Virus record (IMG/VR): IMGVR_UViG_3300006128_000068
Location: 1-22,715 of that record
Source of the DNA: a virus
Reading direction: 5' to 3' (one strand)
DNA length: 22,715 nucleotides
The notes under the pieces are model-generated. The model was not told where the DNA came from. It saw only the letters and a list, made by a program, of their open reading frames with translations, and made no database searches. Shown piece after piece: positions 2,630 through 20,730 of the stretch (positions are counted from its first letter, which is position 1; each line of letters begins with the position of its first letter). The translations under genes were made by a program, and so were the position numbers.

Positions 2630-3316
2630 TTATAGGAATTTTGTGTAGTATTCTTCTAGTTTTTTGAACCAAAGATCAGTATACTTGTCGAATTCAGCAC
2701 CCTCAATGATAAATTCTGCATATACTGCGTTAGGGTCGCACATAAAAATTACACCCTTACGGATATTTGTGCCCCAAACTTCATTATGAGCATTTGCATA
2801 GGCTGCTGTCTGAATAAAGTAATCTTCAATCCATTCACGCTTTTTGATTTTGTTTGCTTGTTTGTGATCCATGATAGCCTCTTGGCCATTATGTATACCG
2901 CATAAATCGGTTGTACCTGCATAAATCTGTGGGAAATAAAGACTGACTTCTGTACCCCAAAACTCGCTACAGTTCACAAGACCCTGAGCAATAATGCTAT
3001 GTGCCATTTTATGACTTTGTACAGAGTACGGATTGCTACCAGGCTCCCCGGTCTCACCTGTTTTGACATAATTTTCAAGCCACTTGTGCATACGTGTGCC
3101 ACGCCCCGCAGCCTCGGTAGTAATCTCTTGTGCTTTTTGTACACCTACACGTTTACGCCAGTTTTGTAATGCTTGTTTGCTTTCTTCGCTTTTAGTTGCG
3201 TCTAGGATAGTTGTTACGCTGGGGACTCTATATCCATCAGGGGTAACATATTTTCGTGATCCATCAATAGTTTCTTTTTTTAATTGTACGTAGTTAAATT
3301 TGTTAGGGTTATACAT
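2630..3316 (-). CDS. PD-(D/E)XK (RecB/Cas4-like) nuclease
   Basis: A 228-residue protein with the motif order of the RecB-type PD-(D/E)XK nucleases: GRGTRMH with His77, a conserved Glu123 before a strand, YAGTTDLCG with Asp137, the IMDHKQ strand carrying Asp150 and Lys152, and the helix QTAAYANAH (Gln169, Tyr173). These residues should bind Mg and cut DNA. The family acts in phage recombination, end processing and host DNA breakdown. Three cysteines (116, 139, 193) are too few and badly placed for the 4Fe-4S cluster seen in Cas4 or AddB. It overlaps the end of the upstream SGNH gene by eight bases, so it is probably translated with it. The fold is well supported; the biological substrate is not known. 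Confidence 0.85.
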   Translation of the reverse strand: MYNPNKFNYVQLKKETIDGSRKYVTPDGYRVPSVTTILDATKSEESKQALQNWRKRVGVQKAQEITTEAAGRGTRMHKWLENYVKTGETGEPGSNPYSVQSHKMAHSIIAQGLVNCSEFWGTEVSLYFPQIYAGTTDLCGIHNGQEAIMDHKQANKIKKREWIEDYFIQTAAYANAHNEVWGTNIRKGVIFMCDPNAVYAEFIIEGAEFDKYTDLWFKKLEEYYTKFL

Positions 3317-3992
3317 TCTCTATCCAGTTGTGGTCTTCATAGGGGTTTTCGTCATTGTAAAATTTATGGTATTCTTTTAGTGTGGTATAGGGCAAATTAA
3401 TAGGTTTAATATCCCCATACCTTTTAATAATTTCTGCATAGCAATAATCTGCTAAAACATATTGTGCTTCATAACCATCGTGTGCATCTTTCTTTGAAAC
3501 CCTAGGATACTCCCTAGTAATCTCATTAAAATTTTTAAGTTTATTTGGATCATTATAAACTTGATTATGCAAATCAGTATATTTTTCTAATGAACCTTCA
3601 CGTATATTATGCCAACTAGGTAAAAAATCACTCACGACATAAGGTATGTTATTACTTTTAAATAGGTTTACACAGTTTAGCCAATATATTAATTTTCTTA
3701 ATTCAAACGTATAATGATTGAGTTTTAAAAAACTTTGTATAATATCCTCTTCACGTGTAGCATGGGAAAATCCAATAATATAAAAAGGTTTAGTATTTTT
3801 GTCCATATAAAAATATTCATATGTTCTTCTAACAATACTATTATTATTGGATCCACGTAAAGCCAAATTAACTACAGGGACATTTAATTTTTTAGCCAAT
3901 AATGCAGGCCAGCCTACTTCCATTGGATTTTCTAATCCCTGACAATAAGTAAAACTGTCTCCGTTGACAACTAAATGTGATATTTCTAACAT
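3309..3992 (-). CDS. SGNH/GDSL-like hydrolase, paralogue A
   Basis: A 227-residue protein with SGNH-hydrolase hallmarks. GDSF near the N-terminus gives nucleophile Ser13, followed by VVNLALRGSNN (block II-like). A C-terminal segment KKDAHDGYEAQ supplies the candidate catalytic His171, with Asp169 two residues before it; the usual Asp at -3 is Lys168. The usual GxND block III is not visible; the equivalent strand reads FYIIGFSHATR. It is clearly paralogous to its upstream neighbour along its whole length (shared GWP, RRT.EY, RKLIYW, NNIPY and LKNF.EIT blocks). SGNH enzymes are esterases or deacetylases, often acting on acylated glycans. Here the substrate is unknown; surface-glycan or virion modification is only a guess. 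It begins three bases after the stop of the upstream paralogue. Confidence 0.75.
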   Translation of the reverse strand: MLEISHLVVNGDSFTYCQGLENPMEVGWPALLAKKLNVPVVNLALRGSNNNSIVRRTYEYFYMDKNTKPFYIIGFSHATREEDIIQSFLKLNHYTFELRKLIYWLNCVNLFKSNNIPYVVSDFLPSWHNIREGSLEKYTDLHNQVYNDPNKLKNFNEITREYPRVSKKDAHDGYEAQYVLADYCYAEIIKRYGDIKPINLPYTTLKEYHKFYNDENPYEDHNWIENV

Positions 3993-3995
3993 GCT

Positions 3996-4811
3996 TTATA
4001 CATCAAGTCCATAATGATATGGTAAATTCATTTCTTTTCTATACCATTGATTAATATTTTCAAATGTTCTTAATGGATATTCTGATGGGTAATCTTTTAA
4101 TGATAAAAAATTTCCTTGTACAGGTTTAAATTCACCGTAAATACTGGTTGCCTGTTCATATATAAATTCTGCCAATGCAACTTGTGCTTGTTTACCATGA
4201 TGTGCTTTATCTAATGCTTTCGGGTAATGCGTTGTTATTTCTGAAAAATTTTTTAATCTGCATATATCAGTATTGACATTTGCATATAATGATAAGTGAT
4301 TTTTTATGATATAATCGTTAGTTGTTTGAGTGTAATCAGGAAAATAATCTGAAGTAAGATATGGAATATTATTAACTTTGAAAAGATTTACTATAGAGTT
4401 CCAGTATATTAATTTACGAACTTCGCTCATTAATATACCAACGTCATCCATTTGTTCATACACAGGTTTACTAATTCTAGATCGGCTTTCACTATCTGAA
4501 TATGCTATAATTTGATAATTTTGGACTGGTTCATTATTACAGACGGAATGATATTGTTCTAATCTGGTATTCTGTGACATAGCAACAATGAAAAAAGGCT
4601 TGCTATTCGTTAATAGATTTTTGTAATAATATTCAAATGTTCTTCGATATATGCCGTCGTTACCCAATCCACGCACACCAAGATTAACAATAGGTACACC
4701 AAACTTATCAGCAACTAGTTTGGGCCAACCTTCATTGGGCGGATCATATAATGCTTGACAGTAAGTAAAACTACATCCAAGCGTTACTACGTGTGTTATT
4801 TCTGTTGCCAT
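3996..4811 (-). CDS. SGNH/GDSL-like hydrolase, paralogue B
   Basis: A 271-residue paralogue of the next gene. The block I motif reads LGCSFTYCQ, so Asp of GDS is replaced by Cys13 while the candidate nucleophile Ser14 is kept. Block II is VNLGVRGLGND. The C-terminal motif DKAHHG gives a canonical DxxH pair, Asp201 and His204. Relative to its sister it carries an insertion of roughly 40 residues (about 86-125) after FFIVAMSQNTR. Its ATG overlaps the TAA stop of the Fe-S carrier gene by one base (TAATG), so it is probably translationally coupled. The family call is good; activity and substrate are unknown, and the two copies may have diverged in specificity. Confidence 0.72.
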   Translation of the reverse strand: MATEITHVVTLGCSFTYCQALYDPPNEGWPKLVADKFGVPIVNLGVRGLGNDGIYRRTFEYYYKNLLTNSKPFFIVAMSQNTRLEQYHSVCNNEPVQNYQIIAYSDSESRSRISKPVYEQMDDVGILMSEVRKLIYWNSIVNLFKVNNIPYLTSDYFPDYTQTTNDYIIKNHLSLYANVNTDICRLKNFSEITTHYPKALDKAHHGKQAQVALAEFIYEQATSIYGEFKPVQGNFLSLKDYPSEYPLRTFENINQWYRKEMNLPYHYGLDV

Positions 4812-5137
4812 TAAACTCTAAAACTTTCGCCGCAACCGCAACGATCACGTTCATTGGGATTGTTGAATTCAAACCCTTCGTTAAGACCTCTTTTAACATA
4901 GTCTATTTCCATACCATCCATGTATACTAGGTCTTTGCCATTAACATAAACAGTGGCTCCGTGATTTTCGTATTTCATCCAGTCACGGGTAACAGGTGCA
5001 ACATCCATGTATTCTAATACATATGCCATTCCACTACATCCTGTGGTTTTTACCCCAATGCGAATTCCAACGCCCTTACCGCGTTTTTCTAATTGATTTT
5101 TTATTTTGTTGGCTGCGGGTTCTGTGATTGTAAGCAT
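4811..5137 (-). CDS. A-type Fe-S cluster carrier (IscA/SufA/ErpA family)
   Basis: A 108-residue protein spanning the full HesB/IscA length. It opens MLTITEPAANKI, has TTGCSGMAY with Cys34, and ends DRCGCGESF with Cys100 and Cys102, so all three cluster-binding cysteines of the family are present. Such proteins accept Fe-S clusters from a scaffold and pass them to client enzymes. In this window the obvious possible client is the radical SAM protein, which needs at least one 4Fe-4S cluster. The ATG is only five bases after a late-type octamer AATAAATA (5150-5143), with no Shine-Dalgarno at normal spacing, so a leaderless mRNA is possible. The family assignment is firm; which A-type subclass it belongs to cannot be told. 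Confidence 0.93.
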   Translation of the reverse strand: MLTITEPAANKIKNQLEKRGKGVGIRIGVKTTGCSGMAYVLEYMDVAPVTRDWMKYENHGATVYVNGKDLVYMDGMEIDYVKRGLNEGFEFNNPNERDRCGCGESFRV

Positions 5138-16582: not shown

Positions 16583-16864
16583 TTATCCAAACTTTAATAT
16601 AAAAAATATATATTTTTTCTCGTCAACAATTTCAAACTTATCTGTAATGTTGCCGTCTAATATGTTCATTTTGAATCCGTAATTTTCTTTTACGTATTCT
16701 TCAAAATCATATGCATCAAACTGACCATCCAAATCAGCTATGTCTTGCATATACTCTTTACGAATCTTTTTTAATGATTCCCAATAATTCCAACGCTTCT
16801 TTCGAAACTCAATCTCAGGATCATTTTCATCATAGTCCTGAAATGATTTTGGCATGTTACTCAT
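16583..16864 (-). CDS. Small protein with C-terminal DEKxY module
   Basis: A 93-residue acidic protein, helical in its N-terminal half (FRKKRWNYWESLKKIRKEYM). From residue 62 it becomes beta-rich: YGFKMNILDGNITDKFEIV then DEKKYIFFILKFG at the C-terminus. The end matches those of the 104- and 77-residue proteins on the other side of the radical SAM gene, giving a shared (I/V)-x-D-E-K-x-Y-x3-(F/W)-x-L type motif. It starts eight bases inside the end of the radical SAM-oxygenase gene, so the two are translated from one message. Function unknown; partner or substrate of the neighbouring enzyme is a hypothesis only. Confidence 0.75.
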   Translation of the reverse strand: MSNMPKSFQDYDENDPEIEFRKKRWNYWESLKKIRKEYMQDIADLDGQFDAYDFEEYVKENYGFKMNILDGNITDKFEIVDEKKYIFFILKFG

Positions 16865-18965
16865 TACTTTTCCAAATATTGTCCACTTGTCTTACTTCGT
16901 CAATTATATCTTTATGTAGGTAATTAATCAACAAAACTGGGCGATTTTTTGAAGTTGGGTTTGGCATACTGCTGTGCAATAGTCTTGTGTTGTATATTAA
17001 CACATTACCTTTAAAAACATCTGGTTGAATATAATTTTGTAAAAACCAAACGTTCATATCTCCATTATAACACTTGTTAATATCAAAGTCCATTTTTTGA
17101 CTATGCGGTACAATTCCCGTACCAGCAGTATCTTTACCCATTTTATCTAATGGTATAATAACTTGTACACCTAAAAGTCTTTTATCTGTATTCCATTTGT
17201 CAAAACGATTTGGAGTATCAATATGTGGACTGATCCAAGTACTTCCTGCATTGATAGTTACAATATCACTTGAATACATTACTGCATCTTTAAGGTACTT
17301 TGTGATATACATATTGATTTTATAATCAATTTGTTGTACTTCAGGCCAATCTAATACGCTTTGGCTCCACCATACACTAATATCAGATAAATTTTTGATA
17401 TCATCACGTTCGGCATATTGTTTGCTACTGCTTGATGCACGTACTGGATACAATGTATCTAATTTAGATTCTATACTTGTAAGTATTTCATTACCAATGA
17501 TAGTATCAGTAATTACATAACCCGGACCATCTATTAAACTATTGGCATAACCATGTACAGGATTTTTACCTCTAATATAAAAATCACCCGGAATGATTCC
17601 ATGATCCCAAATCTTGTGTAATTCATCCCATAATAAAGGTAAACTATCTTGCAGTTTTCTATTTCTATATTGATCAGATTCAGTAATAAAATGCTTTAGT
17701 TGTGACAATGAAGTAGAGTTAACAATTTGTGGTTCTTCTAACCACTTGATAACAATATTAATTGTATCAATTAATCCACTGTTTACTTTGTCATTTAAAT
17801 CATTGGGATGTTCATTATTAAATCTGTCTAACAATTTCTTTGCTTTAACTACTCCCAGTTGTCTATACTCAGGAGTTAATAAACTAATCAATGAGTATTC
17901 AGGATGTGACACACGATTGGCAAACACACTGGCATGATATACCAATGTTTTTTCTTCCATGATAATAGGAAACTCATTGAATAAATCATACCAAAATTCA
18001 AGTAAGTCTACGCAATCAATTGCATTGAAAAGGCTTATAGTGCAACTTAATCCAACTGTAAACTTAGTATCAGTAGAGGAAGAATCTGTGTGCATTGCCA
18101 ATCTACTTTTATGAACTAAGCCCACATATGTTCTAAGATTGCTTTCTACTTTACTCCACTTGAAAGGATAACGAATATATTCGTTGACTTGTTTATAACC
18201 GTCAATAGAAACAGATACGTGAACACTACCAAAGTTATTCCAAATATCAATTAACTCATCAGAGATACCAGTTAAGTTAGTAACATAACTTAAGCGAATC
18301 TTTTTAGCACGTCCTGTGGCAATGATTAATTTTAAGAACTTGATGTGTTCTTCTGAAATAGTGGGTTCACCTCCCACTAGACTAATAAATTCTACGTTAG
18401 GAAAATCATCTACTAATTTTTGTGCAGTTTCGTTATCAATAGAAACTCGTTTGTATTGAACTTTTTGCTCTGGTTGTATTCTCCAAATATCATTCCATTC
18501 TTCTTCCCAAAAATCACTAAGAATAGAACTGCATGTCATGCACTTACTATTGCACTTTGTACCAAATGTCAAATCTAGATATTTGATGTCGGTTGGATTG
18601 ATACTTTTATTCATTGGAACAAAATCATTTATGTTCTTATTCCAAATAGTACGCATGGATGCAATGTCGTTTTCTTCTGCTTGTTTACAATTCAAACAGG
18701 CATCGGGCCATTCTCCATTAATTAATTGTCCTCGCAACTCTCTAAGATTCTGTGCGTTGATTCTGACCTTAGGGTCTCGTCCAACTACTCCATAGTCATA
18801 GTGACCATCTTTATACATTTTCCAATGGTCGGTACGAATATTACAGCAAGGAATATACTCGCCAAATGCGTTGATTGATGCTGAGCCAAACGCTAGGCTA
18901 CAATATATAGGTTTCTTAGTATCCGTATTATTCACATAATTTCCAATGCACGTATGTTTTTTCAT
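16857..18965 (-). CDS. Radical SAM enzyme fused to Fe(II)/2OG (phytanoyl-CoA type) oxygenase
   Basis: A 702-residue two-enzyme fusion. N-terminal cysteines (22, 40, 41, 90, 93; YCSLAFG, PCCNIR, CLNC) are arranged as in twitch/SPASM-related proteins. The radical SAM motif CNSKCMTC follows (Cys138, 142, 145), then LVGGEP (about 197-201) and a barrel pattern ending near residue 450. The last 200 residues are a PhyH-type oxygenase: SPHID (His581, Asp583), GTGIVPHSQ, RLLHSS (His664) and Arg675 for 2-oxoglutarate. Both active sites look intact. I start at ATG 18965; the frame extends to 19052, but that would overlap the upstream gene by 125 bases. AGGAG is 15 bases upstream, which is not ideal. The substrate is unknown. 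Confidence 0.85.
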   Translation of the reverse strand: MKKHTCIGNYVNNTDTKKPIYCSLAFGSASINAFGEYIPCCNIRTDHWKMYKDGHYDYGVVGRDPKVRINAQNLRELRGQLINGEWPDACLNCKQAEENDIASMRTIWNKNINDFVPMNKSINPTDIKYLDLTFGTKCNSKCMTCSSILSDFWEEEWNDIWRIQPEQKVQYKRVSIDNETAQKLVDDFPNVEFISLVGGEPTISEEHIKFLKLIIATGRAKKIRLSYVTNLTGISDELIDIWNNFGSVHVSVSIDGYKQVNEYIRYPFKWSKVESNLRTYVGLVHKSRLAMHTDSSSTDTKFTVGLSCTISLFNAIDCVDLLEFWYDLFNEFPIIMEEKTLVYHASVFANRVSHPEYSLISLLTPEYRQLGVVKAKKLLDRFNNEHPNDLNDKVNSGLIDTINIVIKWLEEPQIVNSTSLSQLKHFITESDQYRNRKLQDSLPLLWDELHKIWDHGIIPGDFYIRGKNPVHGYANSLIDGPGYVITDTIIGNEILTSIESKLDTLYPVRASSSSKQYAERDDIKNLSDISVWWSQSVLDWPEVQQIDYKINMYITKYLKDAVMYSSDIVTINAGSTWISPHIDTPNRFDKWNTDKRLLGVQVIIPLDKMGKDTAGTGIVPHSQKMDFDINKCYNGDMNVWFLQNYIQPDVFKGNVLIYNTRLLHSSMPNPTSKNRPVLLINYLHKDIIDEVRQVDNIWKSNE

Positions 18966-19242
18966 CCATGATGATGTATTCTCCTGCTTTGAACCAAGAT
19001 CCTTGGTACACAGGCTCGCCATAGTATTTAATGCACCATAGTTCCATAGCACTTTTTATGCCACGCATTCTATTAGGTGGCATCATTTTAATAAATGTCT
19101 TTTCTACCCACTGATTATTTTCCCAAAATTTCTTTTTAGCCTTTGTAGCGATACTAGGATCAAGGTCATAAAAGTGACCAGTGATTGGATCACTTAATCC
19201 TCTGTCTATTGAAATTAATTTTTTAGTTGAATAGCCTGCCAT
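18928..19242 (-). CDS. Small protein with C-terminal DEKxY module, upstream of radical SAM gene
   Basis: A 104-residue basic protein starting MAGYSTKKLISIDRG, with GGAG five bases before the ATG and its start one base after the previous stop. The end reads YYGEPVYQGSW, then EYIIMDEKTYVHWKLCE, closely like the C-terminus of the 93-residue protein (YG then FEIVDEKKYIFFILKFG). It overlaps the radical SAM gene by 38 bases if that gene starts at 18965, implying coupling. No enzyme motif is present. Function unknown. Confidence 0.75.
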   Translation of the reverse strand: MAGYSTKKLISIDRGLSDPITGHFYDLDPSIATKAKKKFWENNQWVEKTFIKMMPPNRMRGIKSAMELWCIKYYGEPVYQGSWFKAGEYIIMDEKTYVHWKLCE

Positions 19243-19243
19243 G

Positions 19244-19477
19244 TTAACTCCACCTCAATGTAAACATTATATAATCTTTTTCATAACGAAACTTAAACTT
19301 CATTTCTCCGTCATCTAATATTATCCAACGTGTATGTCTTTCAAATTTATTGTTATTATTTCTTAACCATTCAAGTATTTCATTGTAATGCTTTACATGT
19401 GCTGATGCTTGATGCCAACCCGGGTTAGTATGTTCCCAACCTTTAGGATCGTGATAATTGTACACATCAATATCCAC
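19244..19477 (-). CDS. Small protein with related C-terminal module
   Basis: A 77-residue Trp- and His-rich protein starting with GTG at 19477, 11 bases inside the end of the zinc-finger gene. The N-terminus MDIDVYNYHDPKGWEHTNPG is unlike its neighbours, but the C-terminus (WIILDDGEMKFKF then RYEKDYIMFTLRWS) aligns with the 93-residue protein's NILDGNITDKFEIV and DEKKYIFFILKFG. There is no ATG alternative and only a weak ribosome-binding site. It is called because the frame is open, tightly packed and shows this similarity. Function unknown. Confidence 0.65.
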   Translation of the reverse strand: MDIDVYNYHDPKGWEHTNPGWHQASAHVKHYNEILEWLRNNNNKFERHTRWIILDDGEMKFKFRYEKDYIMFTLRWS

Positions 19478-20165
19478 CAGCAGCCAATAACTCTTTTACT
19501 TGTGGCACGATATTGCTATTACGCTTAAATCTAATAGCCCATTGTTCGGGGTCAATATATTCAAGAATCATTTTTTGCTGTGATTCATCTAATCGTTCAA
19601 TCAAGCCAATGCCACTAGTACTTTGATATAGCATCCATGGACTGATTCTACCAGCGGTGATAGCATAGCAAATTTTATTTGCATTACCATATCGCAAATA
19701 ATCTTTGCTTAGTATACCTTCTGCTTTTGCAAGTTCAATTGTTGTTTCAATACTACGTGCAATAGCATCTAGTGGGTCTTCGTTTTTCATATGGTCAATC
19801 AAAAACTTTGTGTAGTTTGTGTCACTACACCAACTATCAACTTTGATATTATTTTTTAGTAACCAATCAGCGTATCGTTCAACATTGATAACATTGACGT
19901 TGACACAATAATGTCCGAACTTAACAAAGACCAAATAATAAGAACTCTTAATAAAGTCTAAGTATGTTTTAGTCTTTTTAGTTGGTGTGTTCTTTTTATA
20001 AAAAGATAGCCATGTTTGAAAACCAATACGGTTACCCGTTTGGTCTTTGTCTTGCCATCTGCGTTTGTTTTCACATAAGTGTTTATCTAATGTGGACTCA
20101 CGCAGAAATTCTCTGTTACAAAAATCGCAACTGTGTTTTACCTCAGTTACCGCTGTCTTCTTCAT
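19467..20165 (-). CDS. Conserved phage protein with N-terminal C2HC zinc finger
   Basis: A 232-residue protein. The first 40 residues hold a zinc-binding motif, CDFCNREFLRESTLDKHLC (Cys13, Cys16, His29, Cys31), a C-x2-C-x12-H-x-C pattern, followed by basic KRRW. The remainder is helical with DPLDAIARSIETTIELAKAE and RISPWMLYQSTSGI, which look like a conserved core. A DNA- or RNA-binding role is likely; the exact function is unknown, and relatives appear common in marine T4-like phages. I use ATG 20165; the frame opens upstream to a GTG at 20198 without a clear ribosome-binding site. It overlaps the upstream gene by 23 bases. Being among replication genes, it may act with the replisome or in late transcription. 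Confidence 0.8.
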   Translation of the reverse strand: MKKTAVTEVKHSCDFCNREFLRESTLDKHLCENKRRWQDKDQTGNRIGFQTWLSFYKKNTPTKKTKTYLDFIKSSYYLVFVKFGHYCVNVNVINVERYADWLLKNNIKVDSWCSDTNYTKFLIDHMKNEDPLDAIARSIETTIELAKAEGILSKDYLRYGNANKICYAITAGRISPWMLYQSTSGIGLIERLDESQQKMILEYIDPEQWAIRFKRNSNIVPQVKELLAAGGY

Positions 20166-20730
20166 ATTGTTTAATGTCTTTATCTGTAACAAGGTCACTT
20201 AATAACTCAATTTCATCAAATTTTAAATTGGGGAATTTCTCAGCAAGATACACTTTGCGTTTATGATTATCTACAAAAGCCTCGGATATCAATGCAATGT
20301 CGCTATCACTAGTCTTTGGATAGATTTTTTTATAATATTCTTTGATATCTTTTAGTTTTGCAGGTTCACGCAACTCACTTACTTTTTCTTTAATGTGAGG
20401 TATCCACTGATGAAACTGCTTGCCTAATCCCGGGCTAGCCGCACACAACATCAACCATTGTAGTTTAGGATGATGATATACGTTTTCATTAAACAAATAT
20501 TTGTTTGCATGGTAGTTAGTGCTTTGCAAATAATATGATTGCAAATCACTATTACCCTTGATTGCACTAACCCAATGAACTAGCATAAAAGGTACAATTT
20601 TCTTTTGCTGTTCTTGTGTTAGTCTATCATAGAAGCCATAGTCTTTCTTATCAATAGCCGCAAGAATATCAAACAAGGCTACGTCTTGATTTTCAAACTT
20701 TTCCTCAGTTGATACTTTTTCTTTTGCCAT
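20143..20730 (-). CDS. Possible clamp-loader small subunit (T4 gp62-like)
   Basis: A 195-residue helical protein, close to T4 gp62 in size (187). Features in the right order include FDILAAIDKKDYGFYDRL, PFMLVHWVSAIKG, an Asn-rich NYHANKYLF helix, KLQWLMLCAASPG, and WI preceding EYYKKIYPKTSDSDIALIS. These recall the conserved core of gp62 homologues (PFMxNRxxS ... W ... Y ... A), but similarity is limited and neither gp44 nor gp45 is in the window. If correct it would help load the sliding clamp. It is adjacent to replication and recombination genes. It shares one base with the upstream gene (TAATG). Confidence applies mainly to the gene; the function call is tentative. Confidence 0.6.
   Translation of the reverse strand: MAKEKVSTEEKFENQDVALFDILAAIDKKDYGFYDRLTQEQQKKIVPFMLVHWVSAIKGNSDLQSYYLQSTNYHANKYLFNENVYHHPKLQWLMLCAASPGLGKQFHQWIPHIKEKVSELREPAKLKDIKEYYKKIYPKTSDSDIALISEAFVDNHKRKVYLAEKFPNLKFDEIELLSDLVTDKDIKQYEEDSGN

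Follow-up and report, generated by a model that had tools for sequence, protein, structure and literature searches.

Can two enzymes whose chemistries make opposite demands on oxygen work together within a single phage protein, and if so on what? The question is raised by the window, a 22,715-nucleotide stretch of viral DNA in which one minus-strand frame carries a radical SAM domain and, after it, a PhyH-type Fe(II)/2-oxoglutarate (2OG) oxygenase domain. Radical SAM clusters need reducing, low-oxygen conditions; 2OG oxygenases need O2. An earlier note had read the frame as a single phage protein in which both catalytic domains are intact, and this reading is borne out by profiles, conserved residues, a structural model and homologues that cross the domain junction.

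The open reading frame extends over 16857..19052 (minus strand) and encodes 731 amino acids from a GTG at 19052. The gene had at first been taken to begin at the first ATG (16857..18965), and a GTG at 18935 (16857..18935, 692 amino acids) now appears the likelier true start, since it lies inside the 3' end of the small gene upstream and a comparison with L003, a related 88-kb contig, indicates translational coupling to that gene. Homologues of the fused gene were found in L002, L003, L018, L019, L020 and L255. Five other IMG/VR contigs (L002–L006) hold homologues at 80–100% identity: the same frame occurs at 100% in L002, with parts of it in L004 and L005, and a frame 80–81% identical occurs in L003, with part of it in L006. 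The domain junction is spanned in L002, L003 and L006. Since independent contigs carry the junction at both levels of identity, 100% and about 80%, misassembly of two genes, a concern raised in the earlier note, was ruled out, and 16857..18935 was confirmed as encoding a single intact protein with both enzyme domains. Between the window and L003, dN/dS is 0.06 for the twitch domain, 0.10 for the radical SAM domain and 0.07 for the oxygenase, values that are rough because synonymous sites are near saturation and in which purifying selection is still clear.

The radical SAM half (described here in P0001 numbering, which runs 29 higher than that of the earlier note) comprises an N-terminal twitch, or auxiliary Fe-S, domain at 18603..18908 and a radical SAM core at 17625..18590, both on the minus strand. 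The NCBIfam model NF033640 (N_Twi_rSAM) takes in both, matching residues 49–476 over model positions 3–396 of 398 with 259.4 bits against a cut-off of 170 (E 6e-77); PF04055 matches the core with 37 bits against 29.5 (E 4e-9), and a weak match to PF13186 (SPASM) covers residues 51–123. The CX3CX2C motif (C167, C171 and C174; 18531-18554, minus strand) is invariant in 33/33 relatives, as are GGEP at 227–230 in the same number of aligned relatives and five N-terminal cysteines (C51, C69, C70, C119 and C122), which are the extra cysteines that had been noticed there before. These five are also constant in distant jumbo-phage and Vibrio-phage members and would suit an auxiliary Fe-S cluster, the twitch domain here preceding the core, not following it. 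By such matches the half is assigned to the N-terminal-twitch radical SAM family, and the assignment rests on sequence profiles because the 50 Foldseek matches listed all fall in the oxygenase. All scores against RiPP-maturase equivalogs were far below cut-off (the best, YhhB, 33 bits against 445); of the prokaryotic viperin models, NF038283 reached 26 bits against 180 and PADLOC pVip just 27 bits, over the core.

The oxygenase half lies at 16863..17537 (minus strand) and matches PF05721 at residues 596–705 with 29 bits against a gathering cut-off of 22 (E 1.6e-6; 32.1 bits in another search), over part of the model (98–212). The profile search that the earlier note had proposed thus places both halves over cut-off (NF033640 and PF04055; PF05721). 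The HxD metal ligands (H610 and D612; 17217-17225), distal histidine (H693; 16974-16976) and 2OG-binding arginine (R704; 16941-16943), all on the minus strand, had been picked out correctly as H581/D583, H664 and R675, and the CX3CX2C cysteines as C138/142/145. Of 48 relatives, 45 retain all four oxygenase residues. The others (L041, L042 and L050) keep the distal histidine alone, and in each the fused second copy adjoins an intact separate oxygenase gene. In their fused oxygenases (L041 2162-3973, L042 888-2696, L050 7995-9806), H has changed to E or Q, D to A or G and R to Y. They are likely pseudo-oxygenases that act as a scaffold, and since they are without metal ligands, tethering can outlast catalysis, a point that tells against the two-step reading set out below.

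Structure prediction with AlphaFold2, also proposed in the earlier note, gave a two-domain model from a 70-row alignment (mean pLDDT 89.9, pTM 0.71), in which a single inner segment falls below 50, namely the interdomain linker (residues 453–462 of model m35e335f5a6f0; 17550..17579, minus strand). The oxygenase half matches PhyH-type folds: Foldseek against the PDB placed FtmOx1, AndA, KanJ and HygX first, with a probability of 1.00 at 11–17% identity. A sequence search of solved structures returned weak PhyH matches only, with none for the radical SAM half, and no cellular homologues of the oxygenase were found in the genome contigs searched with the patterns used.

How often the halves occur fused or adjacent, a count that the earlier note had suggested, was determined among relatives from a radical SAM alignment scan of IMG/VR (335 relatives, 80 kept) and an oxygenase alignment scan (274 relatives, 80 kept). 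Among 58 non-redundant oxygenase domains found with our own profiles, 10 are fused to a radical SAM domain, 15 lie next to a radical SAM gene (at no more than 100 bp from it and in most cases overlapping it) and 33 have none within the retrieved flank, a figure that is an upper bound on absence because contigs are fragments and some flanks are short. None of the 58 has a radical SAM gene elsewhere in its locus, away from the oxygenase; where both enzymes are present, they are fused or touching/overlapping in 25/25 non-redundant loci. The states seen among close relatives are fusion, separate genes that touch or overlap in either order (radical SAM before oxygenase, R>X, or the reverse, X>R), the oxygenase alone and the radical SAM alone; as each enzyme also occurs without the other, neither strictly requires its partner.

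On an IQ-TREE tree built from the radical SAM domain, the distribution of fused and split states requires two changes, and forcing all fused rows into one clade was rejected (AU p = 0.009); fusion originated at least twice. Repeated fusion and touching genes imply that the radical SAM and oxygenase work as a pair, for which we propose that the overlapping two-gene arrangement is the usual state and that fusion tethers the partners via a flexible linker. The earlier statement that the two are usually separate genes in marine T4-like phages held as regards their separateness, the label "marine T4-like" being unconfirmed for the window. Its further suggestion, that one substrate is modified in two successive steps, is fitted indirectly by the recurrent fusion and adjacency, the presence of both domains in one protein being established. 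A search of 50,697 isolated-phage records yielded no relative of the oxygenase half; for the radical SAM half it yielded a distant one in three Vibrio phages only. A search of open-access literature, which takes in few subscription papers, on radical SAM/2OG fusions and on twitch radical SAM enzymes in phages turned up no account of such an architecture; the fused form is probably new, and both component families were already known.

All loci share one syntenic accessory island between conserved replication genes, the order being UvsW, proteins of 166, 195 and 243 aa, the island, an Rv2179c-like exonuclease, a 191-aa protein, (deformylase), primase and DnaB helicase, where UvsW, primase and DnaB helicase are presumed assignments. 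In the window the island is bordered upstream by the conserved 243-aa protein (phrog_11058; 19467..20198) and downstream by the Rv2179c-like 3'-5' exonuclease (PF16473; 16026..16580), both on the minus strand. Co-location alone is weak evidence, because one hotspot is common to all loci and accounts for part of the co-occurrence, but the hotspot does not explain immediate adjacency, for which a rough calculation that assumes random gene order gives a chance probability of ~0.001 (2/n for five lineages, with n about 9, 3, 11, 6 and 16 island genes). Elsewhere in the window, 4811..5137 (minus strand) encodes an A-type Fe-S carrier, IscA/HesB (PF01521), which is a plausible supplier of clusters to the enzyme; in environmental genomes of T4-like phages, Fe-S carriers and as many as 12 genes for radical SAM enzymes are reported (PMC5332604). 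Positions 3309-3992 and 3996-4811 encode tandem, mutually similar proteins, one with a weak, below-cut-off match to GDSL lipases.

Small genes overlap the fused gene at both ends, all on the minus strand. A 104-aa gene (ending HWKLCE; 18928..19242), whose product belongs to the small-protein family, overlaps its start and is preceded by a 77-aa protein (ending FTLRWS; 19244..19477) with a predicted beta-alpha-beta-beta-alpha domain, and a 93-aa protein (ending FFILKFG; 16583..16864) overlaps its end. This family, which crowds the island, is undescribed and hugely expanded, the profile of the 77-aa protein recruiting 1060 ORFs in the retrieved loci (a redundant count). Its signature is F..EKD...FxL[RK]W at the very C-terminus, and tandem arrays reach about 20 members; arrays occur in the window (18928-19477 and 16583-16864), in L003, L047, L137, L180, L203 and L248, and in many more loci. 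The 77-aa member has no Pfam match over cut-off, only marginal PHROG matches and no significant Foldseek match among solved structures.

Two roles for these small proteins were considered and rejected. A strict C-terminal LRW serving as a modification tag is at odds with its coding: AGG encodes the Arg in 67% of 479 cases, against a background of 8%, and AGGTGGnnATGA at the LRW end supplies the ribosome site and the start of the next gene. In the predicted structure the motif is a helix within a folded domain. The RW codons at the same time provide the ribosome site for the overlapping ATG that follows, and each gene therefore carries an interchangeable cassette end, the commonest being AGGTGG followed directly by TCATGA (566 unique ORFs). 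Nor are the proteins with a C-terminal LRW obligate substrates, as a pattern scan found their arrays in many phages that do not have this radical SAM, and the radical SAM/oxygenase loci all lie in one hotspot; 13 of 30 long contigs with such arrays, which may be incomplete, have no N_Twi_rSAM.

Another small protein, P (114–149 aa), is encoded beside the enzyme in relatives. In most R>X and fused ones its gene runs up to the start of the radical SAM gene or ends 0–24 nt within it. Every profile match above 105 bits lies immediately upstream of the radical SAM, save in L311 (which has no radical SAM) and L041 (where it follows the oxygenase), whose matches are immediately upstream of the oxygenase. 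High-scoring P occurs across both fused clades, and weaker homologues are scattered through other arrays. As the window, L024, L031 and L032 are without P, it is a candidate partner or substrate and not an obligate part. In the window the 104-aa gene abuts the fused gene; in L003, P comes after the KLCE gene and before the fused gene, a comparison by which 18912..18935 (minus strand) would be the scar of a P gene that the window has probably lost.

The explanation toward which we lean, with modest confidence, is that the two halves form a bifunctional, two-step C-H-functionalising module, both acting on one substrate and coupled within an island of a T4-like phage lineage. Carrying an auxiliary Fe-S cluster in its twitch domain, the radical SAM half would make a 5'-deoxyadenosyl radical, which would functionalise an unactivated C-H position. 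After or before this, the PhyH half would use Fe(II), 2-oxoglutarate and O2 to hydroxylate or desaturate the same molecule, its Fe(IV)-oxo chemistry acting at the same C-H position as the radical or at a neighbouring one, and the substrate would be passed between the halves within the tethered pair. The activity of both halves, their action on a single substrate and the order of the steps are what we infer. Our guess is that the substrate is a polypeptide, possibly, though less likely than not, a small protein of the same island; otherwise it would be a host protein, a nucleotide or a metabolite.

A specific form of this explanation has the enzyme modify the small proteins of the island, chiefly P, in the manner of RiPP maturases with a neighbouring precursor. 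The constant place of high-scoring P immediately upstream of one enzyme or the other fits this, nearly every radical SAM of the clade that was checked lies in or beside a small-protein array, and there is precedent in the polytheonamides, where the radical SAM enzymes PoyB/C/D and the 2OG enzyme PoyI act on one peptide (PMC9505594). Yet four loci, the window among them, do without P, the same arrays occur in many phages that lack this radical SAM, the 77-aa relative has the predicted structure of a folded domain rather than that of a leader-core precursor, and the RiPP-maturase scores are all far under cut-off, so that we hold this form to be possible, if on the unlikely side. More ambitious, and in our judgement quite improbable, is the idea that P, R and X constitute a phage protein-modification system in which one, often fused, enzyme adds a two-step modification to small proteins of the tandemly expanded family and so tailors many products.

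The position of the island among replication and exonuclease genes could instead point to nucleic acids, with the pair making a hypermodified base or tRNA nucleoside. A radical SAM step followed by an oxygenase step on one nucleoside is known from hydroxywybutosine, made by the radical SAM TYW1 and, later, the JmjC oxygenase TYW5 (PMC4417183), but no base-modification genes recur beside the pair in its islands and no consistent nucleotide pathway emerges from the gene neighbourhoods of the wider family, which makes this decidedly doubtful. It is also unlikely, if not to the same degree, that the enzyme tailors a small metabolite or glycan in host auxiliary metabolism; although the closest solved oxygenase folds (FtmOx1, AndA, KanJ and HygX) act on small molecules, likeness of fold at 11–17% identity says little on substrate, and the island shows no recurring pathway for sugars or metabolites. 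Finally, the two could be independent cargo genes with unrelated substrates, joined by chance through the overlap of neighbours in one hotspot. Fusion would come easily to overlapping genes in a single syntenic hotspot, where many islands hold only the oxygenase or only the radical SAM, but it has occurred repeatedly, both gene orders exist, 25/25 loci with both enzymes have them fused or adjacent, and both halves of the fused protein are under purifying selection; chance joining is accordingly an unlikely account.

Neighbours of the distant bacterial radical SAM relatives reveal no common pathway, except for a recurring Asp/Asn beta-hydroxylase (PF05118). Its genes overlap or nearly touch N-twitch radical SAM genes in phage contigs (L072, L093) and bacterial MAGs (L331, L345, L346, L366, L349), and 8 of 10 PF05118 matches, some from the same genome, have a radical SAM gene at a distance of about 40 bp or less (genes at L072 7373-7996, L093 6181-6951, L331 1526-2269, L346 13946-14671 and L349 9314-11269). 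Judged by gene position, this is a second, independent radical SAM/2OG pairing, and it speaks for the coupled-module reading. Arrays of up to 10–11 N-twitch radical SAM genes per about 17 kb were seen both in large phage contigs (L069, L070, L072, L087, L090 and L093) and in MAGs, of which many belong to Bdellovibrionota (bacterial loci L334, L345, L353 and L356); the 328-kb record of L070 has 21 N-twitch radical SAM matches.

The joining of both chemistries in one phage polypeptide, at least twice, offers a compact test case for their combination on one substrate. With the oxygenase, the N-twitch radical SAM family, of which environmental phages carry many copies, would gain a first probable functional partner. 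Natural variants (fused, split, P-containing and with a dead oxygenase) make the search for the substrate tractable.

Set against known systems, the window protein resembles N_Twi_rSAM (NF033640) in its full-length match over cut-off, its CX3CX2C motif and its N-terminal auxiliary-cluster cysteines, and differs in adding a C-terminal oxygenase domain outside the 398-position model. That oxygenase shares the HxD...H triad, 2OG-binding Arg and cupin fold with FtmOx1, AndA and KanJ (PhyH, PF05721), whereas it belongs to its own phage family, at 11–17% identity, and is fused to or paired with a radical SAM. In the PF05118 loci the same radical SAM family touches a 2OG oxygenase gene, but one of another oxygenase family, not fused, amid arrays of many radical SAM copies. 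From radical SAM/SPASM RiPP maturases it is set apart by missing the equivalog cut-offs; P overlaps the radical SAM gene in most R>X relatives and is absent in the window. The Poy enzymes are separate bacterial proteins with a known precursor, and the hydroxywybutosine pathway has steps far apart, a tRNA substrate and, in TYW5, a JmjC and not a PhyH enzyme. What we propose that the window protein has in common with them is, with polytheonamide maturation, a substrate on which a radical SAM enzyme and a 2OG enzyme both act (PMC9505594) and, with hydroxywybutosine, the meeting of two opposite C-H chemistries on one molecule (PMC4417183).
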